From the NCBI RefSeq assembly GCF_012222305.1, contig NZ_CP035730.1:1-64000 (forward strand): a stretch of 64,000 nucleotides of DNA, read 5' to 3'. Source of the DNA: Sulfolobus sp. S-194 (GTDB lineage Archaea; Thermoproteota; Thermoprotei_A; Sulfolobales; Sulfolobaceae). This document shows, in pieces, positions 910 through 31,627 of the stretch. The notes beneath the pieces were generated by a model. That model made no database searches. It was given only the letters and a program-made list of their open reading frames with translations, and was not told the DNA's origin. Within the stretch, counting starts at the first letter, position 1. Each line of letters begins with the position of its first letter. Position numbers and translations under genes: made by a program.

Positions 910-975
910 GGCAATTTTAAAAGATAAATAAGTTGAAAAATTTTTTATTTTAAAATATCAAAAAGGGGATATAAA
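910..975 (+). promoter_or_regulatory. arlB-arlX gap: T-run terminator and possible internal promoter
   Basis: This is the only sizeable gap inside the arl operon. It holds a run of T followed by TTTTATTTTAAAATA (about 944-958), which can be read both as a leaky T-rich archaeal terminator after arlB and as a TATA box lying 20-30 bases before the arlX start. A GGGGAT ribosome site sits just before the TTG start of arlX. In Sulfolobus acidocaldarius a second, weaker promoter ahead of arlX is known, which supports the reading. The exact start site cannot be seen from sequence. Confidence 0.5.
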
Positions 976-2173: not shown

Positions 2174-2176
2174 AAA

Positions 2177-3351: not shown

Positions 3352-3353
3352 CT

Positions 3354-15168: not shown

Positions 15169-15663
15169 CTATGTATTATATCCAAGTATTTTATTCATAA
15201 AAGTTCTAAATTTTTCGTCGTAGTTATATAATGTTGTATAAGATTTCGATAATTTACCGCAGATATAAATGCCCTCTTCTTCTTTGTTTACAATATACCA
15301 CGTAAGTCTTGGTTTATATCCTTCTATTTCCTCAAAGATTTTTTCGTACATTTCCTTTAATATCCTTACTTTAGTATTCTTTATTATCTCTTCTTGTCTT
15401 TCATTTAGATAGTAGGACTGGTTATATAAGTTTTTTAAGATATCAACCTTATCTAGACTTTTCTTTTTCATATACTGTAGAGACCCATACCCTTCTTTTA
15501 TTAATCTAATGACTTGGCTTAACCCTAATCCTTTAATACCTTCTTTCTTATCATTCTCACACTTAGGTACAACTAAGAATATCCTATCCTCTGGTAAAGA
15601 TACTTTGTCAATAAAAAACGAGTCAATTGCTATTTTGTTAAAGACGTAATATGGGATGTTCAT
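15169..15663 (-). CDS. Hypothetical protein, last gene of ABC importer operon
   Basis: I do not recognise this 164-residue protein. It is soluble and charged, with a K/E-rich helical middle (about residues 60-120) that could form a coiled coil, and mixed alpha/beta ends. There is no signal peptide or membrane segment. Its ATG overlaps the stop of the upstream permease gene (ATGA), so it is translationally coupled to the importer, and a role in the uptake or first processing of the transported compound is possible. It converges on the long GH116 gene with 15 bases between. Confidence 0.7.
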   Translation of the reverse strand: MNIPYYVFNKIAIDSFFIDKVSLPEDRIFLVVPKCENDKKEGIKGLGLSQVIRLIKEGYGSLQYMKKKSLDKVDILKNLYNQSYYLNERQEEIIKNTKVRILKEMYEKIFEEIEGYKPRLTWYIVNKEEEGIYICGKLSKSYTTLYNYDEKFRTFMNKILGYNT

Positions 15664-16517
15664 GCTCTTAGCCTTGGGTTTGTTATTTCATCTATTCCAT
15701 AACTTAGTAAAATTAACCCAAACATTAGTCCTATGACAGCCAAACTTGGGAAGATTAAATACCAAACCCCTTTTCCTCCAAAAATAGCACCCATATTAAG
15801 CGCTTGACTTATCATATAACCCCAGTTATTTGGATTTACCGGCAACACACCTAAGAAATAAAGACCAACTGCCGCATAAAGGGCTCCCTCAACATTGAAA
15901 ATAAAGTGTACCGCTATATACGAGCCTAAGTTTGGAATTATTTCTCTGAAGATAATATGTAAATTACTAAGACCTAATATCTTTGAAATTTCGATGTACT
16001 GCATAGATTTTAATAAGAGTACCTGTGACCTAATTGATCTCGCTAATCCCGTCCAACTCATTGAACTTAGTATTAATGCTAAGATAACTGGGTTTGAAGT
16101 TCTGATAAGTGTGGCTAAAATAATGTAAACTACTAATGTAGGTAGTGTCATTACAATATCGTTTATTGCCATAAGTATGTTATCAATAATCCCTCCTAAA
16201 TATCCAGCGATTATACCGATTAAAATTCCTATTAGTGTAGTAAATAATCCCGCAAGTAAAGACAATTCTATGATAAACCCGGCACCATAAACTATGTTGG
16301 CTAATATACTTTCACCTAATGGACCAGTACCTAGGATATAATAAAAGTTTGGTTGAGGAGGAAGGAAAATTTTGTTAGCGTTTATTGTTGACACTACGGG
16401 TGGAGGAATAAAGAACGGAAAGATAAATGCTAAGATTAGGTAAAAGACAAGTATAATTAGGCCTACCCTACTCTTTTTATTTTTCCATATTAACTTCACG
16501 TACTCTAGTACGTTCAT
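15660..16517 (-). CDS. ABC importer permease, DppC/OppC type
   Basis: Inner-membrane permease of an oligopeptide/oligosaccharide-type (family 5) ABC importer. It has an N-terminal helix followed by about five membrane segments, and the DppC-like proline-rich extracellular loop (FPFFIPPP). The EAA loop that contacts the ATPase appears as EISKILGLSNLHIIFREIIPN near residue 178-198. At 285 residues it is of normal size. Its pair, the DppB-type permease, and both ATPases are encoded on the other strand starting at 18855, so this importer is split over a divergent promoter. Confidence 0.9.
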   Translation of the reverse strand: MNVLEYVKLIWKNKKSRVGLIILVFYLILAFIFPFFIPPPVVSTINANKIFLPPQPNFYYILGTGPLGESILANIVYGAGFIIELSLLAGLFTTLIGILIGIIAGYLGGIIDNILMAINDIVMTLPTLVVYIILATLIRTSNPVILALILSSMSWTGLARSIRSQVLLLKSMQYIEISKILGLSNLHIIFREIIPNLGSYIAVHFIFNVEGALYAAVGLYFLGVLPVNPNNWGYMISQALNMGAIFGGKGVWYLIFPSLAVIGLMFGLILLSYGIDEITNPRLRA

Positions 16518-16542
16518 ATTAAAATATTCACGTTAACAGTAT

Positions 16543-16728
16543 TTATCTTTTATCAATCAGACTTTTTCTTATCTTATAAATTGAAAATATAATGAGGAAG
16601 AGTGATAAGATAATGATGTAAAGTAAGATAGGAAAGACTGCCATATTATTATAATCTAGAATGAGAGAAAAAATTGAAAGTAATAAAAAAATGTATCCTA
16701 TAGCTAATAAAACTCTGTATTCTCCCAG
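16543..16728 (-). CDS. Possible small two-helix membrane protein, no canonical start
   Basis: Between the binding-protein and permease genes, on the same strand, is an open frame of about 61 codons whose product has two strong hydrophobic helices separated by LDYNNMAVF and ends in a basic tail (KIRKSLIDKR), the pattern of a small membrane protein. A perfect GGAGGT ribosome site formed by the last codons of the binding-protein gene lies just upstream. However, the frame contains no ATG, GTG or TTG before an internal ATG that would remove the first helix. ACG and CTG codons sit at the right distance, and I place the start at CTG provisionally. It may be a real gene with a near-cognate start. 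Confidence 0.45.
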   Translation of the reverse strand: MGEYRVLLAIGYIFLLLSIFSLILDYNNMAVFPILLYIIILSLFLIIFSIYKIRKSLIDKR

Positions 16729-16736
16729 CGTTTTAT

Positions 16737-18731
16737 TTACCTCCTTCTTAGCAAGATTACAGCAACTATAATAATGACGATTATTACTGCTACAGCTACC
16801 CCTACAATTAACCCTACATTAGTACTACTCACAGTCACAGTTGATGGAGGGGTAGTAGAGGTAACGATAGAGGTAACTGTTGGTACTGTAGTTGTTGTTG
16901 TAGTAGTTATTGTTGTAGAAACAAGATAGCCATATTGGAACCCTGCTTGTAAGAATGCTGTTCCTCCAATTCCATATAATGCTTCTTCCCAGAACCAGGA
17001 GTTTGATGGAGGTGCAGATAATACGTTAGAATTGTAAACAATTACATAATCTGAATAGACTAAGGGTAATAATGGTAGATAATAGTTTAATGCGTAAGCT
17101 ATTTCATCATTTGCCGCTATTAGTTGAGAAGTCGAATTAGGTGCCGTTGATTCTATATAAAGCTTTGACATGTTATATACACTACCATTAGGTAGCGGGA
17201 CTAATAAGTCCCAATGGGTCACATTGTACGGTATTCCGCTTAGATATTGTAATTGTAAGTACCAATCAACTGTTCCAGGATAATAGCCTCCCCAATTCTG
17301 GAATGCTAAATCATAATCTCCAGTTTCGTAAAGTTGATGAGCCACAGAAGGAATTGTGATAATTGAATAGGTTGTCGGAATACCGAATGCTGTTAATTCA
17401 TCAGCTATTAGTGTTAACATTGAATCTACTCCAGGTGAAGAAGTACTCGTATCTGTGATATTTAATGTAAATGGTGTACCAGATGGGGTATACCATTGTC
17501 CATTCTTTTCAGTAAAACCAACGCTTTCTAATAGTTCTGCCGCTTTAGTTAAATTTACATTATATGGATTTAAGTTAGATACTGCTGGACTTCTAAACTC
17601 ATTAAAGTATGAAAAGTTTGGTATTCCATTTGGTATATGAACAGGGGAGTATTTTACACCACCAACTAAGGCAATTGCAGTTCTGTTTATTATATAAGCT
17701 ATTGCTTGTCTCACTTGCACGTACTTTAACCATGGATTTTGTAAATTGAAGTATAGTGCATATCCAAATGGTTGAGGTACTGAGACTACTTTATAATAAC
17801 TAGGTAATGATGATAAGGCTAATGATGGTAATGATGTAGCCCCAGAATAAAGTAAACCTATTTCACCTGTTTTTATTCCTGCTAATAGGTCTTGAGAAGA
17901 AGTATATTGATAGATTATTACTTCATTCCATGGAACCATATTTACAGCATAGAATCCAGGATTCTTTGACAGTACTATTTCACTTGGTGTTATTTGACTA
18001 ACGTAGAATGGTCCGTTGTAGCTTGCAGAAATTGGAGCTACTAATGCTGGGTTAAAACTCCTTATCATATTTCTAAATACTGTAGTCTTTACTTTACCCT
18101 CTTGTAATAAAGTCCAGTTTCCTTCAATTTGTGTGATAATTGGCTTCCACACCTGATAATTAGTTATAACTGCAACTTCACCTAATCCTACAGTATTTAA
18201 AAGTGTAAAAGGCATTAAATAAGGAGAAACATAATCCTTAGGGTAAGATATAATTATCGTGTAATTGTTAATCACAGTGTAATTTGGAAATGGGGGAGCG
18301 CTATACATATCTAAAATTAGACATGTTGCTAAAATATCGTAAGCAGTAACTGGTTGTCCGTTTGCCCAATGGGCATTAGGATTCAAATATAAAGTTACAT
18401 TAACACTACTGAGTGAATTATATTCTTGGATCCAATTTGATGGAGAGAACGTCCAATTTTCTACTATTCCAGGTAACATTTGATTATTAGAAACGTTAAG
18501 TATTGCCGAATAAGCATATACGAGACCATAAAATGCTCCTCCAAGACCTCCAGAGAATATGTTTGGATTATATGAGGATAAACTAGTATATGGGGAACTA
18601 GTTACCCAACCAATTGTTAATACCTTAGAAGCTTGCGAGTTTGCAATTATGGTTACAGACGGTAATATTAAACCTAGTAATAGAATAAGCAATGGTATAC
18701 TATACAGTAGTTTAACCTTCATTTCAATCAC
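16737..18731 (-). CDS. ABC importer substrate-binding protein, C-terminally anchored
   Basis: Family 5 solute-binding protein (the OppA/DppA/NikA fold) that captures an oligomeric substrate outside the cell. The order is: Sec-type signal peptide (about residues 5-34), long binding domain with the typical YxxLNxxAHWANGQPVTAYD motif near residue 115, a Thr-rich stalk with TTTTTTTVPTVTS, and a C-terminal membrane helix ending in LLRRR. This order (Ser/Thr linker then C-terminal anchor) is that of the Sulfolobus di/oligopeptide-type binding proteins. The start may be GTG as given, or the ATG nine bases downstream, which leaves a better signal peptide. The substrate is unknown; members bind peptides or oligosaccharides. 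Confidence 0.9.
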   Translation of the reverse strand: MIEMKVKLLYSIPLLILLLGLILPSVTIIANSQASKVLTIGWVTSSPYTSLSSYNPNIFSGGLGGAFYGLVYAYSAILNVSNNQMLPGIVENWTFSPSNWIQEYNSLSSVNVTLYLNPNAHWANGQPVTAYDILATCLILDMYSAPPFPNYTVINNYTIIISYPKDYVSPYLMPFTLLNTVGLGEVAVITNYQVWKPIITQIEGNWTLLQEGKVKTTVFRNMIRSFNPALVAPISASYNGPFYVSQITPSEIVLSKNPGFYAVNMVPWNEVIIYQYTSSQDLLAGIKTGEIGLLYSGATSLPSLALSSLPSYYKVVSVPQPFGYALYFNLQNPWLKYVQVRQAIAYIINRTAIALVGGVKYSPVHIPNGIPNFSYFNEFRSPAVSNLNPYNVNLTKAAELLESVGFTEKNGQWYTPSGTPFTLNITDTSTSSPGVDSMLTLIADELTAFGIPTTYSIITIPSVAHQLYETGDYDLAFQNWGGYYPGTVDWYLQLQYLSGIPYNVTHWDLLVPLPNGSVYNMSKLYIESTAPNSTSQLIAANDEIAYALNYYLPLLPLVYSDYVIVYNSNVLSAPPSNSWFWEEALYGIGGTAFLQAGFQYGYLVSTTITTTTTTTVPTVTSIVTSTTPPSTVTVSSTNVGLIVGVAVAVIIVIIIVAVILLRRR

Positions 18732-18854
18732 AAAATAAAAATATATAACAATAATATATAAACTTTTTCAAATGTTTAAGTACTCTAAAATTAATGATAA
18801 ACAATTGTTATATATATTAAACATTTATATATCTGGTGAATTAACACTATAATT
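18732..18854. promoter_or_regulatory. Divergent promoter of first ABC importer with nested inverted repeats
   Basis: Both divergent importer transcripts start here. Two nested inverted repeats are exact: ATATATAACAAT (18741-18752) with its complement at 18804-18815, and AAATGTTTAA (18770-18779) with its complement at 18817-18826. A 10-base palindrome AACAATTGTT is centred near 18804. The repeats overlap the probable TATA elements in mirror order, so each direction would carry the same operator-promoter arrangement. Confidence 0.6.
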
Positions 18855-19856
18855 ATGAAAACATGGCTTATTCGACGTGTTATCATGTCAATAGTTACTA
18901 TTCTAGCAACCATTATATTTACTTGGGCATTATTAGAATTCTCACCTACAAGTCCAGCTAACTATATTCTTAATCAAATTTCACCATCAGCATTAAGCTC
19001 TAGCAGATCAGCTGAGATATATACTAGTTTAGAGCAATACTTAGAAACTTTACGACCGCACGGAAATCCAATTGTTGAGGCTTTAACTTACTTAGGTAAT
19101 TTTCTTCATGGTAATTTGGGAGTAAGTATAGTTTATGAGGTACCAGTAACTACATTAATAGCAAATGCTTTGCCATGGACGCTTTTCGTAATTGTAACGT
19201 CAGTTATCATAAGCTTCTTCATTGGTATTAGGGCTGGAGAAATTATGGGGTATAAAAGAGGAACTAAAAAGGATTCTACCTTACTTATGACGTTCATAAC
19301 AATTAGGGCTATACCAATTTATATCTTGGGTACACTCCTCTTATTCTTCTTGGGTTATGAACTTCATATATTTCCAAGTGGTGGCGCATATTCAGTTAAC
19401 ACCACACCGGGGTTTAATCTCCAATTTATTGAAAGTGTTCTTTACCATGCAACCTTGCCAATCTTAACCTTAACGTTAATCAATTTAGCTGGTTGGGCGA
19501 TACATATGAGGGCTAATACAATATATACCTTAAGAGAGGATTATGTGGATTTTGCAGAAACTAGGGGTGTTATGGATAAAGTAATCGAATCAAAATATGT
19601 AGGAAGGAATTCAATATTACCCCTTTACACTAGTCTAATAATCACATTAGGTTTCTCCTTTGGCGGTTCAGTCTTTTTGGAGGAAATCTTTAGTTACCCC
19701 GGAGTAGGATTACTTCTTTACAACTCAATAATGAATAACGATTATCCAGTAGAGATGGGTATTTTAGTTATAATAGTTTTAGCAGTTGTAATCGGAGTAT
19801 TTTTGGCAGATCTAACATATTCCTTGCTAGATCCCAGAGTAAAAATGGGTGACTAA
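18855..19856 (+). CDS. ABC importer permease, DppB/OppB type
   Basis: DppB-type permease of the first family 5 importer. The N-terminal helix (RRVIMSIVTILATIIFTWALLEF) and following extracellular loop are typical, about six membrane helices are present, and the EAA loop reads DFAETRGVMDKVIESKYVGRN near residue 236-256. 333 residues is normal. The start follows a TATA-rich region by about 20-25 bases, fitting a leaderless transcript. The downstream ATPase gene begins at or within the stop, so these genes form one operon. Confidence 0.9.
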   Translation: MKTWLIRRVIMSIVTILATIIFTWALLEFSPTSPANYILNQISPSALSSSRSAEIYTSLEQYLETLRPHGNPIVEALTYLGNFLHGNLGVSIVYEVPVTTLIANALPWTLFVIVTSVIISFFIGIRAGEIMGYKRGTKKDSTLLMTFITIRAIPIYILGTLLLFFLGYELHIFPSGGAYSVNTTPGFNLQFIESVLYHATLPILTLTLINLAGWAIHMRANTIYTLREDYVDFAETRGVMDKVIESKYVGRNSILPLYTSLIITLGFSFGGSVFLEEIFSYPGVGLLLYNSIMNNDYPVEMGILVIIVLAVVIGVFLADLTYSLLDPRVKMGD

Positions 19857-19857
19857 A

Positions 19858-20817
19858 TTGCTTTTAAAAGTACAAGATCTATCAGTATCTTACTTCGTCA
19901 ATAAGCATGAAATAGTAGCCTTAAAGGGTGTTTCTCTCGAGATAGAAAAAGGAGAAATATTAGGAATTATTGGAGAGAGCGGTTCTGGAAAAACAACTTT
20001 GGCTAAAGCAATTATTAGGAGCATTAAACCTCCAGGGAAGATAACCAAGGGTAAAATACTTTATGAAGGTGAAGATATTCTCTCAGTTGACATTAAGAGG
20101 TTTAAAAGAGAGTATCTATGGAAGAAAATTAGTTATGTGCCGCAAGCTAGTCAAAACTCTTTAAACGGTGTTATGAGAGTTATTGATCATTTTTATGATA
20201 CAGCGATATCCCATGGTATTACCGGTAAGAATATTATATATAATAAGGCGAAAGAAGCTGTAAAAATGGTATCTTTAGATGAAAGGGTTTTATCATCTTA
20301 TCCTCATGAGCTAAGTGGTGGAATGAAGCAAAGGGTGTTAATTGCCTTATCACTTCTTCTAGATCCCGAGGTCATTATTTTAGATGAACCAACAAGTGCT
20401 TTAGATGTCGCTACGCAAAAATCAATCCTTGATCTGGTAATAAAAATCACTAAGGAATTAGGAACTACAATTATTTTGATAACACATGATATTGCAGTGG
20501 CTAATTATATTGCTAAGAAAATCCTTGTCTTATACGCCGGACGGGTCATGGAGTTTGGAAATACGGAAGAAATAATGAATCATCCTCTACATCCTTATAC
20601 ACAAGGTTTAATTAATTCAGTTCCATCAATTTATAAGGATATTAGCAAATTAAAACCTATAAATGAGGGAGAAATACCACTAAAGGGTTGTCCTTTTCAT
20701 ACAAGGTGTAGTTATGTATCTGAAATCTGTAAGGTAGAGGAACCGTCGTTGTATACAGTTAATACTAGGTTAGTTAGGTGTTTTCTTTATGATAAAACTA
20801 GAAAAAATATCAGTTAA
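19858..20817 (+). CDS. ABC importer ATPase, DppD/OppD type
   Basis: First of two ATPases of this importer. Walker A GESGSGKTT is near residue 38, the ABC signature LSGGMKQR near 156, Walker B VIILDEPTSALD near 176 and the switch His in ITHD near 208; the C-terminal CxxxTRC...C region (GCPFHTRCSYVSEICKVEEP) is the oligopeptide-type C-terminal domain, which in some members binds an Fe-S cluster. I prefer the TTG start 5 bases after GGTGA; an in-frame GTG nine bases earlier overlaps the permease gene and that ribosome site. It overlaps the next ATPase gene by 29 bases. Confidence 0.9.
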   Translation: MLLKVQDLSVSYFVNKHEIVALKGVSLEIEKGEILGIIGESGSGKTTLAKAIIRSIKPPGKITKGKILYEGEDILSVDIKRFKREYLWKKISYVPQASQNSLNGVMRVIDHFYDTAISHGITGKNIIYNKAKEAVKMVSLDERVLSSYPHELSGGMKQRVLIALSLLLDPEVIILDEPTSALDVATQKSILDLVIKITKELGTTIILITHDIAVANYIAKKILVLYAGRVMEFGNTEEIMNHPLHPYTQGLINSVPSIYKDISKLKPINEGEIPLKGCPFHTRCSYVSEICKVEEPSLYTVNTRLVRCFLYDKTRKNIS

Positions 20818-21727
20818 ATTTGGTGGCGGATTACTTTCAAGGAAAAGTCTTGTTTACGCACTAAGAGATATAACTACTGATGAAATAAATTCATCTACAT
20901 TAGTCATAGGAGAAAGCGGTGCCGGTAAGACAACATTAGGGAAAACAATTTTAGGGCTTATAAAACCCTCTGAAGGGGTATATTATTACAAGGGAATTAA
21001 CGTGTGGAAAAACAAGAGAAAAATGTTGAAAATTATTAGGAGAGAAATTCAATATGTTGCACAAGATCCCTTTGCATCTTTTAATCCAAACAAAACTGTA
21101 GGTGAATCAATAGGTTATGTTGTAAAGAAATATTATGGAAGAAAAAACTATAAAGAAAGAGTGATAGAGTTATTAAAAAGTGTAGGATTAAGTGAAAGAG
21201 AGTTTTATAAGTACCCTCACCAATTATCTGGTGGGCAATTACAGAGAGCAAACATCGCTAGGGCTTTAGTTCCTAATCCTAAAATCTTAGTCGCTGACGA
21301 ACCTACATCAATGTTAGATGCTTCATTAAGATTAAGTATTATAAATTTGTTAGCAAATTTAATAGAAAAAAATGAGTTAAAAGTTATTATGATCACTCAT
21401 GATTTAGGGATTGCTAAGTATTTTTATTATAAGGTGAAAAAGGTTAAGGGGCTAATTCTCTATAAGGGTAGACTAGTTGAAGAAGGAGACTTTCTAGATA
21501 TATTAGAGAAGCCATTACATCCTTATACAAAATTTCTAAAAGAGAATATAATTGATATTGCTAATGTGAACAGAGATAATCAATATATAGTCAACGAAAA
21601 AAAGTTAAATGAAAATGGATGTCCATTTTACCTTTACTGCTCATTTAAGCTAGATATTTGTAAAAATAGTTTTCCTCCTAGCAAGAGTATTAATAATCGT
21701 AAAGTTGCTTGTTTCCATTATGCTTAA
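20789..21727 (+). CDS. ABC importer ATPase, DppF/OppF type
   Basis: Second ATPase of the first importer. Walker A is GESGAGKTT near residue 43, signature LSGGQLQRANIAR near 146, Walker B ILVADEPTSMLD near 168 and switch His in ITHD near 203. The C-terminal region has the Cys pattern GCPFYLYCSFKLDICK. The Q-loop AQDPFASFNP is normal. The ATG lies inside the preceding gene and is preceded by GGTG at 8 bases, so it is coupled. 312 residues is typical. Nothing suggests loss of activity. Confidence 0.9.
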   Translation: MIKLEKISVKFGGGLLSRKSLVYALRDITTDEINSSTLVIGESGAGKTTLGKTILGLIKPSEGVYYYKGINVWKNKRKMLKIIRREIQYVAQDPFASFNPNKTVGESIGYVVKKYYGRKNYKERVIELLKSVGLSEREFYKYPHQLSGGQLQRANIARALVPNPKILVADEPTSMLDASLRLSIINLLANLIEKNELKVIMITHDLGIAKYFYYKVKKVKGLILYKGRLVEEGDFLDILEKPLHPYTKFLKENIIDIANVNRDNQYIVNEKKLNENGCPFYLYCSFKLDICKNSFPPSKSINNRKVACFHYA

Positions 21728-21752: not shown

Positions 21753-22193
21753 GTGAAGTTGCTTTATATTAGCCTGTTTTTCGTAGTCCTTGGTATATTA
21801 ATAATTCCAATCACTTATTTTGTTTCTAATGAAGTGGTATACGCGACTAACTTCGACAGAACTTTATCAGATCTTGGAGCATATACGATAAGTATACCAC
21901 AGTATCAAGGAGAACTTGTGGTAAAAGGTTATACAAATTCTAGTATAACAATTGAGGTTCTCAAGTACTTAAAGTTAATAAAAAGTGAGGAAGTAAATGG
22001 AAATTTCACTTTTTCTTTAACTGACAAAGGAGCAAACGCAATTTTCTTACATAATAGTTATAATCCAGCACATGTTTATTTGTTTATAAAAATTATCAAC
22101 AGCGGATTTCAAGGTATTGGAGATACAATAGCTTCACTTCTCATCGTAATTGGGTTAATTTTATTGGGTTATTATAGAGTATTATCTAAGTAA
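21753..22193 (+). CDS. Hypothetical membrane protein with exposed domain
   Basis: I do not recognise this family. The 146-residue product has an N-terminal membrane helix (LLYISLFFVVLGILIIPITYF), a predicted beta-rich extracytoplasmic region with two NxS/NxT sites, and a C-terminal membrane helix (IASLLIVIGLILLGYY). Both termini would be on the cytoplasmic side. It starts at a GTG 25 bases after the ATPase gene, so it could be the last gene of the importer operon, perhaps an accessory subunit. It converges with the DUF871 gene, overlapping its end by 8 bases. Confidence 0.65.
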   Translation: MKLLYISLFFVVLGILIIPITYFVSNEVVYATNFDRTLSDLGAYTISIPQYQGELVVKGYTNSSITIEVLKYLKLIKSEEVNGNFTFSLTDKGANAIFLHNSYNPAHVYLFIKIINSGFQGIGDTIASLLIVIGLILLGYYRVLSK

Positions 22194-23181
22194 GAAATTC
22201 AAATTCTTTTTTCATTTTAAGGATTTCAATATTTAAGTCATCTATTTCACCTATAAGGGTGAAAGGACCTACTCCCAAATCCTTTTTAAATATATAAATA
22301 TCATTATTTAGTAACGTAACTGCATTTTTGAATATTTTCGTGTGGCACTTTAAGTTATTTTCAATCCTCTCCTTACTCTTGCAAACAATCGCATATTCTT
22401 TTTCCTCATAGAGGTAAAATTTGCTCTTTAGGAATTCTTTAAATCTCTCGTCGTATAATTTTATCCTAACCTTGTTTGATTTGAATGCGATAGATACATC
22501 TTTTAACCATTCTTCTTTAGGAGTTGGATCTCCAATTAAAACTCTGTCTACAAAGTGTGAAAGATAATTCGCTGAATCAAAAGGCTGTACAAATCTCAAC
22601 ATTTCTAATGTGGTCCTTAAATTATATAAGGGATGGGAGATAAAGGCACCAATTTCAATACCCCATTTTTTTAACAGCTTATTCTTTTCTTCAAAAATCT
22701 CTTTCGAAATCCCAGTATAAAACACAGGATAATAGTTGTGAATTGCCTTTATCCTTTCTAGGTCTGCATTATTCATAATGAATTCTAACTCAGCCTCAGT
22801 AATTTCAAATGGGTTTAATTCAACTACCATTTGCTTGCTCATCTCAACAATCTCTTCTTTTGAAAAACCGTAATCTGCTCTAACAGCCTTAAATCCCATG
22901 TTAATAAATTTAGATAAATCCTTTGGCGATGCGTTAACTCTCTTTAGTATGTCCGGGTTTATATCAACGAATGTGTAATAATCCTTTGCTTCTTCTAAGA
23001 AATCTTTAGCTAAAATGATTGCTTCTTCTACTGAAGTTTTCCAATGTGTACCGGGACCTATGCCGAAGAATATCTCTGAATAGCCGTAATTTCTCGCAAT
23101 TTTTATGATATCTAATTGTTCTCTTTTTATCTCTTTCCATCCTGGGAAAATTGAAAAACCTATCTTTTTTCTTTGTCCCAT
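22186..23181 (-). CDS. DUF871 / MupG-like protein (6-phospho-muramidase fold)
   Basis: Belongs, by pattern, to the DUF871 family, whose bacterial member MupG hydrolyses MurNAc-6-phosphate-GlcNAc disaccharide in peptidoglycan recycling. Seen here: the N-terminal GFSIFPG strand, a TIM-barrel-like series including FVDINPDILKRV, then GFKAVRADYGFSKEE, VVELNPFEIT and HNYYPVFYTGIS, all with counterparts in MupG; and a C-terminal domain ending GPFTLIGEIDDLNIEIL. 331 residues is slightly shorter than MupG. Sulfolobus has no peptidoglycan, so the natural substrate is open. Its neighbours are two oligomer importers and, 7 kb on, glmS-like and nagA genes, suggesting action on a phosphorylated amino-sugar disaccharide. 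Substrate is inference; family membership is fairly secure. Confidence 0.75.
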   Translation of the reverse strand: MGQRKKIGFSIFPGWKEIKREQLDIIKIARNYGYSEIFFGIGPGTHWKTSVEEAIILAKDFLEEAKDYYTFVDINPDILKRVNASPKDLSKFINMGFKAVRADYGFSKEEIVEMSKQMVVELNPFEITEAELEFIMNNADLERIKAIHNYYPVFYTGISKEIFEEKNKLLKKWGIEIGAFISHPLYNLRTTLEMLRFVQPFDSANYLSHFVDRVLIGDPTPKEEWLKDVSIAFKSNKVRIKLYDERFKEFLKSKFYLYEEKEYAIVCKSKERIENNLKCHTKIFKNAVTLLNNDIYIFKKDLGVGPFTLIGEIDDLNIEILKMKKEFEFLT

Positions 23182-23292
23182 AAGTTATATGCTTACCTTC
23201 TATTTAAATAGTTGATTTATTAAACTTAAAAAATAAAAACGGGTATAAACATTAGAAGAGTTGCTTAAACCTCTTTGGAAATGGATAAAAAA

Positions 23293-25353
23293 TTACATAC
23301 TTTGACTTGAATACGTATATGTGGAGTAGTACATCATATTGTAGAAGTAACCTACATAGGGGTTATATACGAATCCTTGCACATATGGCTGTACTAAATA
23401 GTACGTGTCTGGGAATGGTAACCATGCATAAGGTGCTTCATTATATAGTATCTGATATACTTTAGCAACTAGCTGTATTTGTTCTGTCTGATTAGTAATG
23501 AATGGCAGTGTCTGATAAATCTGTTGTAGAGTTGAGATGTTAACCCATGCTAGGTTTCCAGAGATACCACCAAATTGTACATCAGTTAATGGCATTAACT
23601 GCTGGAATACTGGGTCTGGCCAATCTGGGAACCAACCTAAATCTACCATATCTGGAGTACCAGATGGTGTTGTCCATCCATCTGTTACTGAGGGTAATAC
23701 GTATTTCACAGAAACACTAAGACCTATTTGCTGCAAATCTTGAGTTATTATTTCAAGTTCATCTTGCTCTAATGGTGTTACTGGAGCTAACGCATATATA
23801 TTTAACGTGGGTAACTCTTGTCCATTAGGATTACCTAGTAATGTACCGTTTGGTAAAACTACGTAGAAATCTCCTTGATAACCAGCTTCATTTAAATATT
23901 TCATAGCTAATGCTGGATTATACTGATAAGGTGTCAAATTATCTGGATTATAATATCCTGGGAATTGTGGAGATATAGGTCCTAAATATTCAGCAGCTAA
24001 AATCTTTCCATTATAACTAAATATTTGTAGTAATTGCTGATAATTAATTGCATGTACTATAGCTAGTCTAAAATCAGTGATATTTGTTGGGAATTGTTCC
24101 ATGTTCATTGAAATGTAAAGGACACCGGGTTCAGCACCAAAGTTTCTAAATGTAACATTTAACGGTAATACTGAATAGGGCTTCTGACCTAAAATTTGGC
24201 CTAGGTATGGTATTGAGACGTAGGATATTTGAGCTTGGTTCGTTAAGAAGTCTTCTACTCTATCATTATGTGATAATCCATAGTCAATTACAATATACTT
24301 AATGTGGGCTGGTTGGGCTACTGCTGGCACATTTTGATATTTACCCCAATAATTGGGATTTGCCTCTAATACTATAGTCGAAAATCCTGGAGTAACTTTA
24401 ACTATTAAATATGGTCCGGTTCCGTTCATGCCATACTCATCAAGATATGAATTTGCTGTATTTGGTTGTACTCCACCATGAGCATCAACAACCACAGGAT
24501 TAACAATAGCACCCCACCATGATGCTATATCATAAATAAAGAACCTATAGGGCTCTAATGTATTTATCTCTACCTCATAAGGACCTAGGACTACAACAGC
24601 TTGATTTGGATAACTCATGATTTTTTGTATTGTGACATTGTTTGCATTAAAGTGAGATAGTATTGATGCCAATACTTCCGCTGTTAGTGTATAATTGTTT
24701 GCGGTTGGTAAACCAGTGGCATTTTGTATTGCGTAGTTAACTCCCCAGGGTATAGCATAAAGAGTTTGAGCATAAACTGTTGCATTAAATAACAATTCAA
24801 TATAATTTGCTACTCCGGGACCTTGACCCATTAATATTGTCCTATAGAAAGAGAACCATACTGTTGATGCGTTAACTTGAACACCGTCTGGGAAGTAGAT
24901 TCCATGTCTAATATAGAATATCCAGTGCTGATAATCAGATGTTGAATAATTCTGAGCAATCACTGGTACTACCTCATGATAATTACTACCATTAAACTCT
25001 ACAAGCTCTTGGAACACAGCTGTAAATAATGGACCATCTTGAACATAAAATCCAGTAGCTGGATCTAAAGCATCTGGAGGAGCAGTTTGAGATACATCAA
25101 CCAAAGTAGACGAATTTGGAGTAGAAAGCGTGATAGCCGTAGGAGTTATTGTGGAAGTTGTTGTGGTAGTTGAAGTTGTCGTCATCGGTGGAGTTGTTGT
25201 TGTTGTAGTTGAAGTTGTTGTGGTAGTTATTGTTGTGGTAGTTGGTTTATGACTCATTAGCATTATTGCGGCTACTGCAGCTATTATTATTATTACAACT
25301 ACTATTGCTGCAATTACAGCTCCTGATACTCCACGATTTAGTTTCCTATTCAT
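23293..25353 (-). CDS. ABC importer substrate-binding protein, N-terminally anchored (class III signal)
   Basis: Family 5 binding protein with the opposite topology to the other one in this window. The N-terminus MNRKLNRGVSGAVIAAIVVV is a class III (pilin-like) signal of the sort cut by PibD, as in the Sulfolobus sugar-binding proteins that form the bindosome. A Thr-rich stalk (about residues 37-72) follows, then the 600-residue binding domain, with no C-terminal membrane helix. The binding domain has the usual family 5 features, including FYIRHGIYFPDGVQVNAS near residue 147. By analogy with other class III binding proteins a sugar-type substrate is more likely than a peptide, an inference. 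Confidence 0.9.
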   Translation of the reverse strand: MNRKLNRGVSGAVIAAIVVVIIIIAAVAAIMLMSHKPTTTTITTTTTSTTTTTTPPMTTTSTTTTTSTITPTAITLSTPNSSTLVDVSQTAPPDALDPATGFYVQDGPLFTAVFQELVEFNGSNYHEVVPVIAQNYSTSDYQHWIFYIRHGIYFPDGVQVNASTVWFSFYRTILMGQGPGVANYIELLFNATVYAQTLYAIPWGVNYAIQNATGLPTANNYTLTAEVLASILSHFNANNVTIQKIMSYPNQAVVVLGPYEVEINTLEPYRFFIYDIASWWGAIVNPVVVDAHGGVQPNTANSYLDEYGMNGTGPYLIVKVTPGFSTIVLEANPNYWGKYQNVPAVAQPAHIKYIVIDYGLSHNDRVEDFLTNQAQISYVSIPYLGQILGQKPYSVLPLNVTFRNFGAEPGVLYISMNMEQFPTNITDFRLAIVHAINYQQLLQIFSYNGKILAAEYLGPISPQFPGYYNPDNLTPYQYNPALAMKYLNEAGYQGDFYVVLPNGTLLGNPNGQELPTLNIYALAPVTPLEQDELEIITQDLQQIGLSVSVKYVLPSVTDGWTTPSGTPDMVDLGWFPDWPDPVFQQLMPLTDVQFGGISGNLAWVNISTLQQIYQTLPFITNQTEQIQLVAKVYQILYNEAPYAWLPFPDTYYLVQPYVQGFVYNPYVGYFYNMMYYSTYTYSSQSM

Positions 25354-25444
25354 ATTAGACCAATAAAAAGTTTCTAATTCTATTATTTAAATCTTATCAA
25401 ACTAATCAGTGTTGGTAATGATATAAAGCAATAAATTTTAAATC
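25354..25444. promoter_or_regulatory. Divergent promoter of second ABC importer
   Basis: 91 bases separate the divergent starts of the binding protein and the DppB-type permease. AT-rich TATA-like boxes lie on both sides (ATTATTTAAAT toward the - strand gene, AATAAATTTTAAAT toward the + strand gene). The nested repeats seen at the first importer are not present here, so the two importers are probably under different control. Confidence 0.45.
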
Positions 25445-26497
25445 ATGATTATGGGTAGTTTAATTATGCAAAGCTCATTTTTGAAATTCGCAGTCAGAAG
25501 AGTTATAAACGGGATTGTAACACTGCTACTTCTTATACTATTTGTGTTTATTCTTATTCATGCTGCTGCTCCAAATCCAGCAGCTTTAGCCAGAATCTAC
25601 GCAGGTAATCCACACGCTCCCCCAACAGAGATAGATGAAATAATAAAAGAGTATAATCTTAATGCCCCGATTTATATTCAATTTGTGAATTATATAAAGG
25701 ATATTTTTACTGGGAACTGGGGTATAGATCCTATTTATAATGTTCAAGAATCTTCTCTTTTATTTTATTATTTACCAATCAGTCTTCAAATTGTTATTCC
25801 AGGTGATATTTTAGCAGCAATAATTGGAATATTAAGTGGTGCTATTGCTGCTGCAAATAGAGGAACTTTAAAAGATAGGTCTATAAAAGGTGTTTATCTA
25901 ATAACTTGGGCATCTCCCCCATTTTTAGTTGCTCTACTACTTCAATTAGTTATAGCTTATTATTTAGGCTTATTACCACCTAACGGGACAGTTAATCCTT
26001 TATTAAAAGCACCCCCCTCATATACACCATTCCCTATCTTAAACGCATTAATAGCTGGAGATTGGCCATATTTTATATCAGCAGTGAGACACGCAGTGTT
26101 ACCAGCAATTTCAATAGCTATAATTACATTCGGACTATTTACTAGGATAACAAGGTCGTCTATGCTTGATGCAATGGAATCTGATTATACTAAATTGGCT
26201 TTTGCTAAGGGATTAAAGAGAAATTACGTAGTTTACAGAGTTGCCTTAAGAAATAGTTTAATCCCAGTGATAACTCTTATAGCACTGTTTTTTGGCTATT
26301 CAGTAGCTGGAGCAGTGATAATTGAGGATATCTATCATTATTTAGGAATTGGCTATTTCATAACACAAGCGATAGAAAGCTTAGATTATGTTGCTGTTCT
26401 AGATTTTACAATAATTATTGGTATTGCTGTAATAATAGCCAATTTTATAGCTGATGTACTTTACGGTATTTTAGACCCAAGGGTGAAATTAGAATGA
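25445..26497 (+). CDS. ABC importer permease, DppB/OppB type
   Basis: DppB-type permease of the second importer. Basic N-terminus then helix (INGIVTLLLLILFVFILIH), an extracellular loop with PTEIDEIIKEYNLN as in DppB, about six helices, and the EAA loop DYTKLAFAKGLKRNYVVYRV near residue 250-270. It ends ADVLYGILDPRVKLE, typical of the family. The true start may be the ATG seven codons in (MQSSFLKF...), as no ribosome site marks the first ATG, which would then be a leaderless start. Its stop overlaps the start of the next permease (ATGA). Confidence 0.9.
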   Translation: MIMGSLIMQSSFLKFAVRRVINGIVTLLLLILFVFILIHAAAPNPAALARIYAGNPHAPPTEIDEIIKEYNLNAPIYIQFVNYIKDIFTGNWGIDPIYNVQESSLLFYYLPISLQIVIPGDILAAIIGILSGAIAAANRGTLKDRSIKGVYLITWASPPFLVALLLQLVIAYYLGLLPPNGTVNPLLKAPPSYTPFPILNALIAGDWPYFISAVRHAVLPAISIAIITFGLFTRITRSSMLDAMESDYTKLAFAKGLKRNYVVYRVALRNSLIPVITLIALFFGYSVAGAVIIEDIYHYLGIGYFITQAIESLDYVAVLDFTIIIGIAVIIANFIADVLYGILDPRVKLE

Positions 26498-27570
26498 AAG
26501 TAAGTAAGATATTTATAATTGCAGTTATTGCTTATCTCATAATTAATATAGGTATTTATGCATATTCAGCAAATAAAGCAACCTTGAAAGCCTTACACTT
26601 TCATAATACTGTGTTAGTACCTTACGTACTATTTTCTGCATTTAGTATAACTGCTTCTGTTATAGCTTTAGGAATTTATTTTATATATAGGAATAGCTTA
26701 ATGAGAAATGCATTAAAAAGTAAAGTGGCATTCGGTGCACTAATAATAATCTTCGCTTATTACACATGGTCTATATTTGAGGGGCTTTTACAATATGCTT
26801 CTCATCAAATTCTATATTTTCCATTAGCTTACAAGTTCTTGCCATACAATCCATTCCAATTTAATTTTACGGCATCATTATTACCGCCATCAATTCATCA
26901 TCCTTTTGGAACAAATTATAATGGCGAAGACATTCTGAGTAGAGTCTTATATGCAGCACCCTCAGATGCAGAAATATCAACTGTAGTTGTAATCTCGGCA
27001 ATTATAATTGGAGGTTTAGTAGGAATGTTTGCTGGATATTTTGGCGGATGGGTTGATGAAGTGCTGATGAGAATAACAGATGTATTCTTAGCTATACCCG
27101 GTCTAATACTGGTTATAGCTGTTGCGGTTCTTTTGGGCTCAAGCTTTACGAGTGCCATGATTGGATTAATGATACCCTGGTGGGCAACATACGCAAGATT
27201 ATTTAGAAGTCAAACTTTAGTAGTTAAGAACATGGGCTATGTTGATATGGCAAAGTTAATGGGGTTTAGAAGTTTTAGAATAATTTTCAAACATGTGTTT
27301 CATAACGTTATAGACCCTATACTATCCTATGCTGCATTAGACTTTGGTAATGTCATATTAACCTATGCGAGTCTAACCTTTTTAGGAATAGGACTTCAGG
27401 GTGTTAATCAGCCAGAGTGGGGGGCAATGGTATCTGATGGTTTGCAGTACTTACCACATGTATGGTGGTGGCCTTTATTTCCCTCAATTATCATTCTGGT
27501 TCTGGTAGCATCCTTCGTGGTTTTAGGTGACAGATTACAAGATGTAATTGCAGGGAGGGTTACATATTGA
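26494..27570 (+). CDS. ABC importer permease, DppC/OppC type
   Basis: DppC-type partner permease. It is longer than usual (358 residues) because two extra N-terminal helices precede the family core. The core includes HPFGTNYNGEDILSRVLYAAP near residue 136 (the HxxGTDxxGRD motif of DppC), and the EAA loop DMAKLMGFRSFRIIFKHVFHN near residue 250-270. It ends VVLGDRLQDVIAGR, typical. It overlaps the genes before and after by four bases each. Confidence 0.92.
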   Translation: MKVSKIFIIAVIAYLIINIGIYAYSANKATLKALHFHNTVLVPYVLFSAFSITASVIALGIYFIYRNSLMRNALKSKVAFGALIIIFAYYTWSIFEGLLQYASHQILYFPLAYKFLPYNPFQFNFTASLLPPSIHHPFGTNYNGEDILSRVLYAAPSDAEISTVVVISAIIIGGLVGMFAGYFGGWVDEVLMRITDVFLAIPGLILVIAVAVLLGSSFTSAMIGLMIPWWATYARLFRSQTLVVKNMGYVDMAKLMGFRSFRIIFKHVFHNVIDPILSYAALDFGNVILTYASLTFLGIGLQGVNQPEWGAMVSDGLQYLPHVWWWPLFPSIIILVLVASFVVLGDRLQDVIAGRVTY

Positions 27571-28538
27571 AAGTCCTTGAAGTTAAAAATCTTTCAGTAG
27601 GATATAAATCATTAGTCGGGAAATTTAGAGTCTTACATAATGTAACCTTTAATGTGGAGAGTGGAGAAATTATAGGAATTGTTGGAGAATCGGGTTCAGG
27701 TAAGTCTACTTTAGGTCATTCAATTATTAGATTATTACCACCAAATGCTTACTTTGAAGACGGTGAGATTCTCTTTCAAGGAAAAGATATAACCAAAATT
27801 TCTGAGAAAGAAATGGTAAATATAAGGGGTAATGGAATTTTTATGATATTCCAAAACCCATTAAATAGTCTAAACCCAGTAAAAACTGTTGAATACCAAC
27901 TTCTTGAAGCTGTAAGAGTTAAGGCAAGTAGGGATGGTAAAAATTTCGATGAGAAAGAAGCTATGGAAATAATTTTAAATGCTGTAAAAGACGTTAGGTT
28001 GCCAGATCCAGAAGAAATAATAAAGAAATATCCTCACCAATTATCTGGTGGACAAGTTCAGAGAGTTGTAATCGCTATGGCCCTAATTCTTAGGCCAAAG
28101 ATACTAATTGCCGATGAGCCTACTTCAGCATTAGACGTTACAATACAAGCTCAAGTTGTAAAATTATTTAAACAGCTGAGAGAGGAAGAGGGTATTTCTA
28201 TTCTTTTTATCTCTCACGATATATCTCTTGTTTACGCTATTGCCGATAGGATAATAGTAATGTATGCTGGAAGGATAATGGAGGATGGTAATATAGAGGA
28301 AGTTATAAAAAATCCAATGCATCCATATACTCAAGGGTTAATAAGTAGTATTCCCAATATTTCAAAGAGAGAAGGGGAATTAAGAGTAATTGAGGGTAGC
28401 CCACCATCATTTTTAGTTTTACCAACTGGATGTAAGTTTCATCCTAGATGCAACAAAGTAATGGATATATGTAGAAATAAAGAACCAGAATTAAAAGAGA
28501 TAAATAATAGAAGAGTAAGGTGTTGGTTATATGAATGA
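27567..28538 (+). CDS. ABC importer ATPase, DppD/OppD type
   Basis: ATPase of the second importer. Walker A GESGSGKST near residue 42, Q-loop IFQNPLNSLNP near 96, signature LSGGQVQRVVIAMAL near 161, Walker B ILIADEPTSALDV near 181, and the switch His ISHD near 213. The C-terminal oligopeptide-type domain has GCKFHPRCNKVMDICRNKEPE. The TTG start overlaps the stop of the permease gene (TTGA), a usual arrangement here. It overlaps the next ATPase gene by 8 bases. Confidence 0.92.
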   Translation: MKVLEVKNLSVGYKSLVGKFRVLHNVTFNVESGEIIGIVGESGSGKSTLGHSIIRLLPPNAYFEDGEILFQGKDITKISEKEMVNIRGNGIFMIFQNPLNSLNPVKTVEYQLLEAVRVKASRDGKNFDEKEAMEIILNAVKDVRLPDPEEIIKKYPHQLSGGQVQRVVIAMALILRPKILIADEPTSALDVTIQAQVVKLFKQLREEEGISILFISHDISLVYAIADRIIVMYAGRIMEDGNIEEVIKNPMHPYTQGLISSIPNISKREGELRVIEGSPPSFLVLPTGCKFHPRCNKVMDICRNKEPELKEINNRRVRCWLYE

Positions 28539-29502
28539 ATTAATAAGAGTAGTAGGATTAAAGAAGTATTTTATAGTGGGCAGTTACGGTATTTTAGATA
28601 AAATTTTTGGGAAGAAACCGGTTATAGTAAAGGCACTTGATGGTATTGATTTAGAAATTTATGAGAAAGAAACTTTAGGTGTTGTAGGAGAATCCGGTTC
28701 TGGAAAAACCACTTTAGGAAGAATATTGGTAACATTAGATAAACCAACATCTGGGGAAATATATTACAGAGGTAGAAAAGTAACTGAGAAAAACATTAAC
28801 GAGATAAGAAAGAAAATTTCAATGGTTTTCCAGAATCCAGCCAGTAGTATAGATCCTAAGATGAAGATATTTGATGTAGTCGCTGAACCATTAAGAAAAG
28901 TAAGTTCAGATACCAAGAGAAAATTAGTAAAGGAAGCGTTAGAGAGTGTTGGTTTAGACTTTGATTACATAGCTGGAAAGTATCCAAAGGAACTATCTGG
29001 TGGACAGTTGCAAAGGGTAGCTATAGCTAGGGCATTAATTACTGAACCAGAATTTATTGTATTAGACGAACCGACTTCGGCGTTAGATGCTTCAGTTCAG
29101 TCACAAATACTAAATCTTCTAGTAAAAATTCAAAGAGAAAGAGGAATAACATATATGTTCATAACTCACAACATTCATGTTGCAAGATATATTTCAGATA
29201 GAATTGGGGTGCTGTATGCTGGAAAATTAATGGAAATCGGTGGTTCTGAAGATATAATTTCATCACCAAAACACCCATATACTCAAAGTTTAATTGCGTC
29301 AGTGCCATCATTAAAGAGAAGGGAGTTACAACCACCAAGTGGAGAAGTACCGTCACTAATTAATCCCCCTAGTGGTTGTAGATTTAACCCAAGATGTCCC
29401 TTTGTCATGGAAATATGCAAAAAACAAGAACCATCATTATTCGAATATAACGGGAGAAAGGTAGCATGTTGGTTACTAAACCAACAATCACAAAAACAAT
29501 AG
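28531..29502 (+). CDS. ABC importer ATPase, DppF/OppF type
   Basis: Second ATPase of the importer. Walker A GESGSGKTT near residue 54, Q-loop VFQNPASSIDP near 98, signature LSGGQLQRVAIARAL near 153, Walker B FIVLDEPTSALDA near 176, and ITHN in place of ITHD/H-loop with the His kept. The C-terminal Cys motif is GCRFNPRCPFVMEICKKQEP. A short insert (VGSYGILDKIFGKKPVIVKALDG) before the first core strand is usual in DppF. GGTG lies 8-10 bases before the ATG. It overlaps the next small gene. Confidence 0.92.
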   Translation: MNELIRVVGLKKYFIVGSYGILDKIFGKKPVIVKALDGIDLEIYEKETLGVVGESGSGKTTLGRILVTLDKPTSGEIYYRGRKVTEKNINEIRKKISMVFQNPASSIDPKMKIFDVVAEPLRKVSSDTKRKLVKEALESVGLDFDYIAGKYPKELSGGQLQRVAIARALITEPEFIVLDEPTSALDASVQSQILNLLVKIQRERGITYMFITHNIHVARYISDRIGVLYAGKLMEIGGSEDIISSPKHPYTQSLIASVPSLKRRELQPPSGEVPSLINPPSGCRFNPRCPFVMEICKKQEPSLFEYNGRKVACWLLNQQSQKQ

Positions 29503-29855
29503 TGAAAGGAACTATTCTAATTTTAATCTTCTCTTTATTTTTAGATTTTTACAAGATATTTGACTTTATTTTATTTTTATTAATCATATACTCATTACTC
29601 TTCTTATACATAATTTGGAAAAGAATGCATACTTATGAGTTCAGTGAGAGTGAAATAATAATAAAAACTCCTTTTTCAAGCAAAAAGATTATGTACTCTA
29701 GTATTGATGACGCATTCTTTTCCATAGGTTTTTTAGCCAAAAGATTTCACTGTGGTTCAATATACTTAATATTAAAGGACAGAAAAGTTGAGATAATTAG
29801 AGACATTCCTAATCCTGAAGAGGCTTTTGAAATATTGAAAAAGAAAGTTATATAG
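29466..29855 (+). CDS. Small membrane protein with PH-like domain
   Basis: A 129-residue protein with two adjacent membrane helices (about residues 14-50) and a soluble C-terminal half whose strand pattern ([30 protein letters not shown]...) resembles the bacterial/archaeal PH-like (DUF304-type) domains found after paired helices. The function is unknown. AAAGGT precedes the ATG; this start overlaps the ATPase gene by 37 bases. A GTG at 29502 touching that gene's stop is an alternative. It is probably the last gene of the importer operon and it converges on the glmS-like gene with an 8-base overlap. Confidence 0.6.
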
Positions 29856-31593
29856 TTACAGCTTTAACTAAACCTACTGGAGTATCAATTGGTAATTCCT
29901 TCTTAACACCAAGCTTATAAGCTAATAGTTGAAGAGGAATAACATTAGTTATTGGAGAAAGATCTCTAGTAGTTTTCACACTCTTAAAATCACCCTCTGG
30001 GGAAATAGTTATTATCGGACTACCCCTATCTTTTGCTAACTTAATAACTTTGCTATATAGATCCTCAGCTTGATCTTCGGCAGGCTTTATAATTAGTATT
30101 GGATAACCTTTATTAGTTAAAACAATTGGACCGTGAAGAAGTTCTCCTAATTGAACGCCTTCTGCATGGGTTAATGAAGCTTCCTTAAACTTTAAAGCTC
30201 CTTCAAGGGCAATTGGATAATTAATTCCACTACTAGCAACATAAAGACTTTCTTTATCAATCAAATTAACTAACTCCTCAGCTCTCCTCTCCATATAAGG
30301 TAATGACTCTGAAACTAACTTTGACAATCTTTGTATTTCATTCTTATCACTATCTATTTCATTCTTATTGATTTTACCTAGTTGATAAGATACATAATCA
30401 GATAAAATTTTGAGAACCACAATTGTAGAAGTGAAGGTTTTTGTAGCCGGTACGGCCAGTTCTGGTCCAGCAGTTATTGGCAAATAAACATTTGATTCTA
30501 AAGCTAATCTAGAGCCCACAGAGTTTGTAATACCCAAAATTACAGCACCCCTTTGTTTTGCCAATTTAATACTCCTTATTACATCTGAAGTTTCGCCACT
30601 TTGACTAATTGCAATAACTACAGTACCAGTTGTAATGTTATCTAATGCGTAATAAGGAAATTCGGCTGCACTTATAACGTTTAAACTGATATCGTGAAAG
30701 TAATAAGAAGAAATATAGCCAGCGTGTAAACTACTACCATTACCAATAATGTAAACCTTTCTAGCACTTGCAACAATCATTGAAGCTAAAGATAAATACT
30801 TCTCCATAAGCGAATTCACAGAATTTATTAACGAAAGAGGAATATCATAAATTTCTTTTAGCATAAAGTGTGAAAAACCTCCCTTATCTGCAATCTCCTC
30901 CTTATACTTAACCCTCTTTAATTCCCCATTTACTTCACCTTGAGTATTAAATATCTTAAAATTATCTGGAGATAATATTACATAAGTGTTTTCTGGTACG
31001 ATAATAGCGTTTTCTGCAAAACCAGTTAAGGAGTATAAATCACTTGAAATAAAGAAACATTCATTAGAAATACCAACATATAATCCTTGACCAGCGTTTA
31101 CTGCAAAGATTTCTTCAATACCCTTTACTATGAAAGCAAAAGAATATAGGCCCCTAACTACGTTCCAGATACCCTTTAACTTCTCCTCATAATTTCCCTC
31201 CAGATAGTGTGGTAAAACTTCGGTATCGGTAGTAGTAACAAATTTGTGTCCTTCCTTCTCTAATTTTTCCCTTAATATCTCATAATCATATAAAATACCG
31301 TCCATAACTAATGCAATCTCCCCTTTACAGTCAGTTATTGGATGTGTATTATTTATTGTTGGCCATCCTCTACTCGCGTATCTAGTATGACCTAAGGCGA
31401 CTTTAGATTTATCATTTACCTTGATTTCACTCTTGCTAATATTACCCAACATCTTAACTACTTCTAATGAGGAGTTCTTTTCATAAGTAATACCCGCACT
31501 ATCATAACCTCTATAAATAAGCCTTTTTAAACCAAGATTAATAATAGAAACGTCTCTAGGGTTTTTACATATAAATCCAAAAATACCTCCCAT
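29848..31593 (-). CDS. GlmS-like SIS protein with degenerate glutaminase site
   Basis: Full-length homologue of glutamine:fructose-6-phosphate aminotransferase (GlmS): N-terminal Ntn glutaminase domain (about 1-215) and two SIS sugar-phosphate domains. The N-terminal nucleophile Cys is missing: the protein begins MGGIFGF instead of MCGIFGF, and the oxyanion Asn of the NGI motif is Asp98 (MDGIL). The THG motif reads SRG. The SIS half is intact: [42 protein letters not shown]...GELLHGP, and the C-terminal LVKAVT with the isomerase Lys. A synthase using glutamine is therefore unlikely; an ammonia-dependent or reverse (glucosamine-6-phosphate deaminase) role fits better. It diverges from nagA with 34 bases between starts, which supports a catabolic role. 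Confidence 0.88.
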
Positions 31594-31627
31594 ATATTTT
31601 ATACCCTTCTAACTTTAATAAACCTTG
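31594..31627. promoter_or_regulatory. Divergent promoter, glmS-like / nagA
   Basis: Only 34 bases lie between the divergent starts, so the two core promoters overlap and both mRNAs are probably leaderless. ATATATTTTATA just inside the glmS-like start region and CTTTAATAAACC toward nagA are the AT-rich elements. Such a shared promoter implies the two enzymes are induced together. Confidence 0.45.

Follow-up and report, generated by a model that had tools for sequence, protein, structure and literature searches.

The MupG protein of Staphylococcus aureus is a 6-phospho-N-acetylmuramidase of family GH170 (PMC6262408). A second GH170 protein, ChbE of Lacticaseibacillus paracasei, was reported in 2026 to be needed, along with nagA, when the bacterium grows on N,N'-diacetylchitobiose (PMC12791066). 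An earlier sequence-only reading of the DNA studied here held that the family has a single characterized member, which is nearly right, as ChbE adds genetic rather than biochemical characterization (PMC12791066). MupG-like proteins of Sulfolobus solfataricus and Sulfurisphaera tokodaii, with a function guessed to be different, were already published in 2018 (PMC6262408), and a full-text literature search for DUF871 and archaea retrieved that paper only. No link between the MupG-like proteins of Sulfolobales and an amino-sugar catabolic pathway was found in the literature searched.

Here we describe a MupG-like gene from a 64,000-nucleotide stretch of the genome of Sulfolobus sp. S-194 (the window), together with its relatives in other archaeal genomes. 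The sequence-only reading had supposed an archaeal host, which fits the genomes of the same family; among these are "Sulfolobales archaeon HS-7" and a metagenome-assembled genome titled "Sulfolobaceae archaeon."

The window encodes a protein with the MupG family fold

The MupG-like (GH170/DUF871) gene, of the type that we call subfamily A, occupies positions 22186..23181 on the minus strand, with its ATG at the 23181 end, and encodes 331 amino acids. The sequence-only reading had identified this open reading frame without giving its strand, and the DUF871 motifs that it quoted are present in the protein (RADYGF at residues 101-106, VELNPF at 120-125, HNYYP at 148-152, and YTGIS at 155-159). 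The family assignment is supported by a match of residues 7-230 to Pfam MupG_N (PF19200; E = 1.3e-43; 149.7 bits versus a cut-off of 24) and by a phmmer search, which retrieved the DUF871 structures 2p0o (1.3e-22) and 1x7f (2e-14). An AlphaFold2 model built from 19 archaeal sequences (mean pLDDT, 91.2) superposed on 1x7f with a Z score of 31.3 over 310 residues (span 3-331) and on 2p0o with a Z score of 27.0; the next-best fold, tryptophan synthase alpha, scored well below both DUF871 structures (Z = 16.2). The closing domain claimed earlier is suggested by the predicted fold but not by Pfam. An HMM search with Pfam MupG_C gave no match in the window protein and recognized 9 of the 19 archaeal relatives (best, 2.4e-17). 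Because the model aligns with 1x7f up to residue 331, the predicted structure suggests that a C-terminal domain is present in diverged form.

The protein should be located in the cytosol, since none of its segments is strongly hydrophobic (maximum 19-residue Kyte-Doolittle value, 0.83). A TATA-box-like element, ACTATTTAAATA, was read by eye on the minus strand at 23201..23212, approximately 20-31 nt upstream of the ATG. This position suggests that the gene has its own promoter and a leaderless mRNA; an alignment of upstream regions revealed no conserved motif.

Conserved acids and an archaeal loop signature

We compared 19 archaeal sequences with 13 bacterial sequences, some of the latter partial, using the numbering of the window protein. 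Residues D73, R101, D103, N123, Y151, T191, E193, and R196 are common to all 19 archaeal sequences and to every bacterial sequence that has a letter at the position. G105, P152, and F180 are likewise kept wherever a letter exists, and H148 is kept in all sequences but one. The sequence-only reading had named loss of the catalytic acids as grounds for abandoning it, and the acids D73, D103, and E193 are retained. In the model each of these three is found at the C-terminal end of a predicted barrel strand (3, 4, and 7) or past it, so the protein appears to offer acids suited to a glycosidase mechanism. The catalytic residues of GH170 were still undetermined in 2018 (PMC6262408), and we found no later assignment in the literature.

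The loop after strand 7 reads R-T/S-T-x-E in the archaeal proteins, in contrast to LPT-x-E in the bacterial proteins, and within the sample compared, Arg189 and Thr/Ser190 are confined to archaeal sequences. The altered loop fits a changed substrate without proving such a change. A change of His to Leu at position 195 was considered as a further archaeal mark and was dropped, as one bacterial MurQ-linked protein also has Leu there.

MupG-like genes are sparsely distributed and occur in two forms

The MupG_N domain was found above the cut-off in 11 of 398 genomes of the phylum, belonging to 4 genera. Within the family Sulfolobaceae, a MupG-like homologue is present in 15 of 31 genomes and 5 of 11 genera; 2 of these 15 carriers (G173 and G357) have an intact copy B and only remnants of copy A. 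A scan of genome contigs with the window protein alone gave no match, and an alignment-based scan gave 12 loci. Carriers outside Sulfolobaceae include Caldivirga. In four Caldivirga genomes (L095-L098, around 9.2-10.7 kb), the gene occupies a conserved spot beside an apparent pyrB, judged by eye; no sugar genes lie near it, and NagA (about 40% identity) is elsewhere in the genome.

A phylogenetic tree places the archaeal proteins on a single branch (support, 100/100), separate from 8 bacterial sequences. The program warns of long branches, and this bacterial sample is small, which limits any reading of the direction of a possible transfer. The archaeal branch divides into subfamily A, the type of the window protein, and a group containing subfamily B and the Caldivirga branch. 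On the bacterial side, DUF871 proteins in Borreliella plasmid records (H31, H33, and H35-H40) are labelled "alpha3-beta1 integrin-binding protein," and their close relatives are labelled DUF871 or MupG family; these labels may all denote one glycosidase family.

Genomes G173 and G357 belong to the genus of the window, and in both the locus is otherwise conserved but copy A is broken. In window coordinates, G357 lacks approximately 22585-22870 and 22988-23125, and G173 lacks approximately 22220-22571 and 22896-23029. Since these deletions do not coincide, the two losses look independent. Both genomes carry a near-identical copy B elsewhere, and the presence of a broken copy A alongside an intact copy B suggests that the two copies do the same job.

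Transporters and glycosidases surround the gene

The MupG-like gene of the window lies between two Opp-type ABC transporters. Transporter 1 (15660..21727) comprises a permease (15660-16517) and an SBP_bac_5 solute-binding protein (16737-18731) on the minus strand and a permease (18855-19856) and two ATPases (19849-20817 and 20789-21727) on the plus strand. In transporter 2 (23293..29502), the SBP_bac_5 protein (23293-25353, minus strand) is directly upstream of the MupG-like gene and is followed on the plus strand by two permeases (25445-26497 and 26494-27570) and two ATPases (27567-28538 and 28531-29502). Orthologues of the Opp transporters surround the MupG-like gene in several genera. The 3' end of the MupG-like gene overlaps that of a convergent small membrane-protein gene (21753-22193) by 8 bases (22186-22193); the small protein has no Pfam match, and its relatives adjoin transporter 1 in other genomes.

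On the far side of transporter 1 are genes for a GH31 glycosidase (7671..9593, minus strand), a GH116 glycosidase (9630..11546, plus strand), and a second GH116-type glycosidase (12628..15153, plus strand). GH116 includes beta-glucosidases and beta-N-acetylglucosaminidases (PMC10167657). An archaellum-like cluster, running from an archaellin-like protein to an assembly ATPase and membrane protein, was recognized by eye at 1-6300, a few kilobases from the glycosidase genes.

NagA and a glutaminase-dead GlmS paralogue accompany MupG-like genes

The window also encodes NagA, N-acetylglucosamine-6-phosphate deacetylase (31625..32743, plus strand; TIGR00221 above the cut-off), and a GlmS paralogue, GlmS-II (29848..31593, minus strand). 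The Sulfolobaceae genomes that have NagA and those that have MupG-like genes are the same 15 of 31, and across the phylum NagA is present in all 11 MupG-like carriers versus 65 of the 398 genomes overall. The corresponding chance values are approximately 3e-9 (family) and 1e-9 (phylum) when phylogeny is ignored and 0.002 and 0.001, respectively, when counted by genus, the fairer unit. The reverse link fails: 54 sampled genomes of the phylum have NagA without a MupG-like gene, and therefore the NagA pathway does not need a MupG-like protein. Most genomes of genus g5 have only a distant NagA (37 to 40% identity), located elsewhere.

GlmS-II is present in 13 of the 15 MupG-like carriers, G402 and G088 being the exceptions, and in none of the 16 other Sulfolobaceae genomes. 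Every genome also has a canonical-type GlmS, at approximately 31 to 38% identity. All 13 GlmS-II proteins have Gly in place of the nucleophile Cys1 and Asp in place of the NG-motif Asn, so the glutaminase site appears dead, and they keep the C-terminal sugar-site lysine; the window copy also keeps the sugar-isomerase domains. The canonical copies keep the Asn and, where the N terminus is readable, the Cys. Given the known roles of the missing residues, we predict that GlmS-II acts as a glucosamine-6-phosphate deaminase rather than as a synthase that depends on glutamine. The window copy scores 432.7 bits with TIGR01135 (glmS) versus 118 with NagB-II and 67 with GlmD, the latter two below the cut-off. 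It passes the glmS equivalog cut-off, and automatic annotation is likely to label such proteins glucosamine-6-phosphate synthase despite their missing glutaminase residues.

Gene clusters in relatives repeat this association. The MupG-like gene, GlmS-II, and NagA adjoin one another in G409, and in five genomes of genus g5, GlmS-II is within approximately 2 to 4 kb of the MupG-like gene, with an Opp-type transporter close by. In G302 and G244, copy B lies inside an orthologue of transporter 1, and NagA, GlmS-II, and a GH38 alpha-mannosidase are encoded close by. The GH38 assignment was made on the G302 protein, to which the G244 protein appears orthologous from its position and the beginning of its sequence; GH38 enzymes were seen in the clusters of one genus. 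In G400, a BadF kinase gene joins GH116, GlmS-II, and NagA; in G402, two GH116-type genes accompany NagA. Both clusters include relatives of the 12628..15153 glycosidase. The neighbors of copy B in G173 and G357 include genes for a PIG-L deacetylase and a GH116 enzyme. In G088, the MupG-like gene is outside any sugar cluster. Near the gene at loci L080-L085, L087, and L094 is a split UxaA-type dehydratase pair (approximately 99 and 387 amino acids), to which some loci add an Ldh2-family dehydrogenase (best NCBIfam model, L-sulfolactate dehydrogenase), a CitE-like lyase, or an enolase-superfamily protein.

A proposed route for GlcNAc-containing sugars

These observations lead us to lean, at slightly better than even confidence, towards a GH170-type TIM-barrel glycosidase that works in the cytosol on imported sugars of the chitobiose type and liberates GlcNAc or GlcNAc-6-P from them. 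An Opp-class ABC transporter would bring in a chitobiose-type disaccharide or short oligosaccharide that contains GlcNAc and stems from chitin or Sulfolobales N-glycans. The MupG-like enzyme would cut the glycosidic bond in the cytosol, freeing GlcNAc or GlcNAc-6-P, and any free GlcNAc would be phosphorylated by a BadF-type hexokinase. NagA would deacetylate GlcNAc-6-P, and the glutaminase-dead GlmS-II, running as a glucosamine-6-phosphate deaminase, would yield fructose-6-P. No ROK-type kinase was found above the cut-off in Sulfolobaceae; BadF-type kinases are present in 31 of 31 genomes, and we take the broad-specificity hexokinase of S. tokodaii to belong to this family. A structure of the S. 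tokodaii hexokinase is cited in PMC10465942. Plausible sources of substrate are a recombinant S. tokodaii chitinase with an optimum pH of 2.5, listed in PMC6172850, and the N-glycans of Sulfolobus acidocaldarius, which have a chitobiose core and sulfoquinovose (PMC2948927).

We favor this GlcNAc route because of the NagA co-occurrence, GlmS-II, and the clusters with Opp transporters, GH38, GH116, PIG-L, and BadF genes and because of the predicted cytosolic location, the retained acids, and the ChbE precedent. Several findings count against it. HPr is absent from the window's genome, whereas each of the two known GH170 proteins operates downstream of a PTS. The archaeal enzyme would either no longer depend on a phosphate group or follow a kinase in the cytosol, which, as no PTS was found, would have to make any 6-phosphorylated substrate. 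In addition, NagA occurs without a MupG-like gene in the 54 genomes, G402 and G088 lack GlmS-II, the NagA of most genus g5 genomes is distant, and the Caldivirga neighbors are not sugar genes.

Alternative explanations

The sequence-only reading had proposed that the protein handles either imported bacterial cell-wall fragments or a new substrate, such as a phosphorylated GlcNAc disaccharide derived from chitin or N-glycans. A true 6-phospho-N-acetylmuramidase, processing the scavenged wall disaccharide MurNAc-6-P-GlcNAc, would agree with the MupG family and fold of the protein and with its retention of the shared residues. However, the etherase MurQ is needed for use of MurNAc-6-P, and none of the 31 Sulfolobaceae genomes has MurQ (TIGR00274) above the cut-off, the matches being short and limited to the SIS domain. 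No PTS HPr was found in the window's genome, and inspection revealed no PTS genes among the neighboring genes. Bacterial MupG genes commonly adjoin murQ and PTS genes, and such neighbors are missing at the window gene. We therefore rejected cell-wall scavenging as the main reading; the muramidase is very improbable, and the window protein is probably not a peptidoglycan enzyme. The other proposed substrate, the GlcNAc disaccharide, is favored by the co-occurrence with NagA and the glutaminase-dead GlmS and by the ChbE genetics (PMC12791066).

The glycone could also be sulfoquinovose, the enzyme cutting sulfoquinovose-GlcNAc of an own-type N-glycan with a C6 sulfonate replacing the C6 phosphate of MurNAc-6-P. 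Sulfolobus N-glycans consist of Glc1Man2GlcNAc2 plus 6-sulfoquinovose on a chitobiose core, and a HexNAc-QuiS fragment has been seen (PMC2948927); GH38 and GH116 occur in the clusters, Arg189 and Thr/Ser190 replace Leu-Pro in all archaeal sequences, and the UxaA-type pair, Ldh2-family dehydrogenase, and CitE-like lyase lie near the gene in several genomes. This glycone nevertheless seems improbable. The UxaA-type gene resembles one for an ordinary UxaA hydrolase; neither the window's genome nor G409 or G302 contains it, and its distribution does not follow that of the MupG-like gene. The Ldh2-family dehydrogenase reaches 240 bits with the sulfolactate dehydrogenase model, far short of the cut-off of 500. 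On these same points, a sulfoquinovose pathway through SuyAB-like and ComC-like neighbors, with the UxaA protein as large subunit, was rejected. More generally, Sulfolobales might have put GH170 to a new use in turning over or scavenging N-glycans of their own type, as a hydrolase of sulfoquinovose-GlcNAc or of unphosphorylated chitobiose; the ABC importer, GH31, GH38, GH116, kinase, NagA, and GlmS-II would together dismantle the Glc1Man2GlcNAc2-sulfoquinovose glycan. We regard this as doubtful; if true, we know of no earlier archaeal locus for N-glycan catabolism, and GH170 would contain a non-phosphoglycosidase. Finally, the protein might serve another sugar pathway, acting on a different sugar or sugar-acid glycoside or catalyzing a nonhydrolytic TIM-barrel reaction, the NagA link reflecting no more than shared sugar-rich species. 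Enolase-superfamily and UxaA-type dehydratases and an SDR beside the gene in G400, G399, G406, and G409 are consistent with this possibility, as are the Caldivirga neighbors and the isolated gene of G088. We consider it a real possibility, although rather unlikely, since the UxaA-type dehydratase does not track the MupG-like gene, while NagA does so without exception and GlmS-II nearly so.

Comparison with known systems

The archaeal GH170 members were without a function in the 2018 paper, and the tie to NagA and GlmS-II joins them to one testable pathway of amino-sugar catabolism in Sulfolobales. This suggests that a heat- and acid-loving archaeon directs amino sugars from chitin or its own surface sugar chains into central metabolism, rather than recycling bacterial walls. 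New, to our knowledge, are the link to NagA and the glutaminase-dead GlmS, the replacement of copy A by copy B, and the archaeal loop signature.

The window protein resembles S. aureus MupG in its MupG_N domain, whole-chain family fold, and conserved acids and arginines. It differs in having ABC importers, NagA, and GlmS-II as neighbors and no murQ, murP, or PTS partner, in the loop after strand 7 (R-T-T-x-E versus L-P-T-x-E), and in a C-terminal domain missed by Pfam. The structures 2p0o (Enterococcus faecalis) and 1x7f (Bacillus cereus) share the whole-chain fold but are bacterial, with 22 to 26% identity, and their PDB records assign no function. The SIS-domain deaminases NagB-II and archaeal GlmD resemble GlmS-II in their SIS domains, expected reaction, and NagA partner; unlike them, GlmS-II retains a glutaminase domain that is full length though apparently dead, and its highest scores are with glmS models. 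With ChbE, compared here by its published description, the window system shares a GH170 protein tied to nagA and an expected product, GlcNAc-6-P or GlcNAc, that enters the NagA route, but ChbE acts on a sugar phosphorylated by a PTS, whereas the window has an ABC importer without a PTS. ChbE is a direct genetic precedent for a GH170 role alongside NagA. The tie of the archaeal proteins to NagA and GlmS-II also suggests a wider scope for GH170, as a family of glycosidases that release GlcNAc and include the muramidase as one branch.
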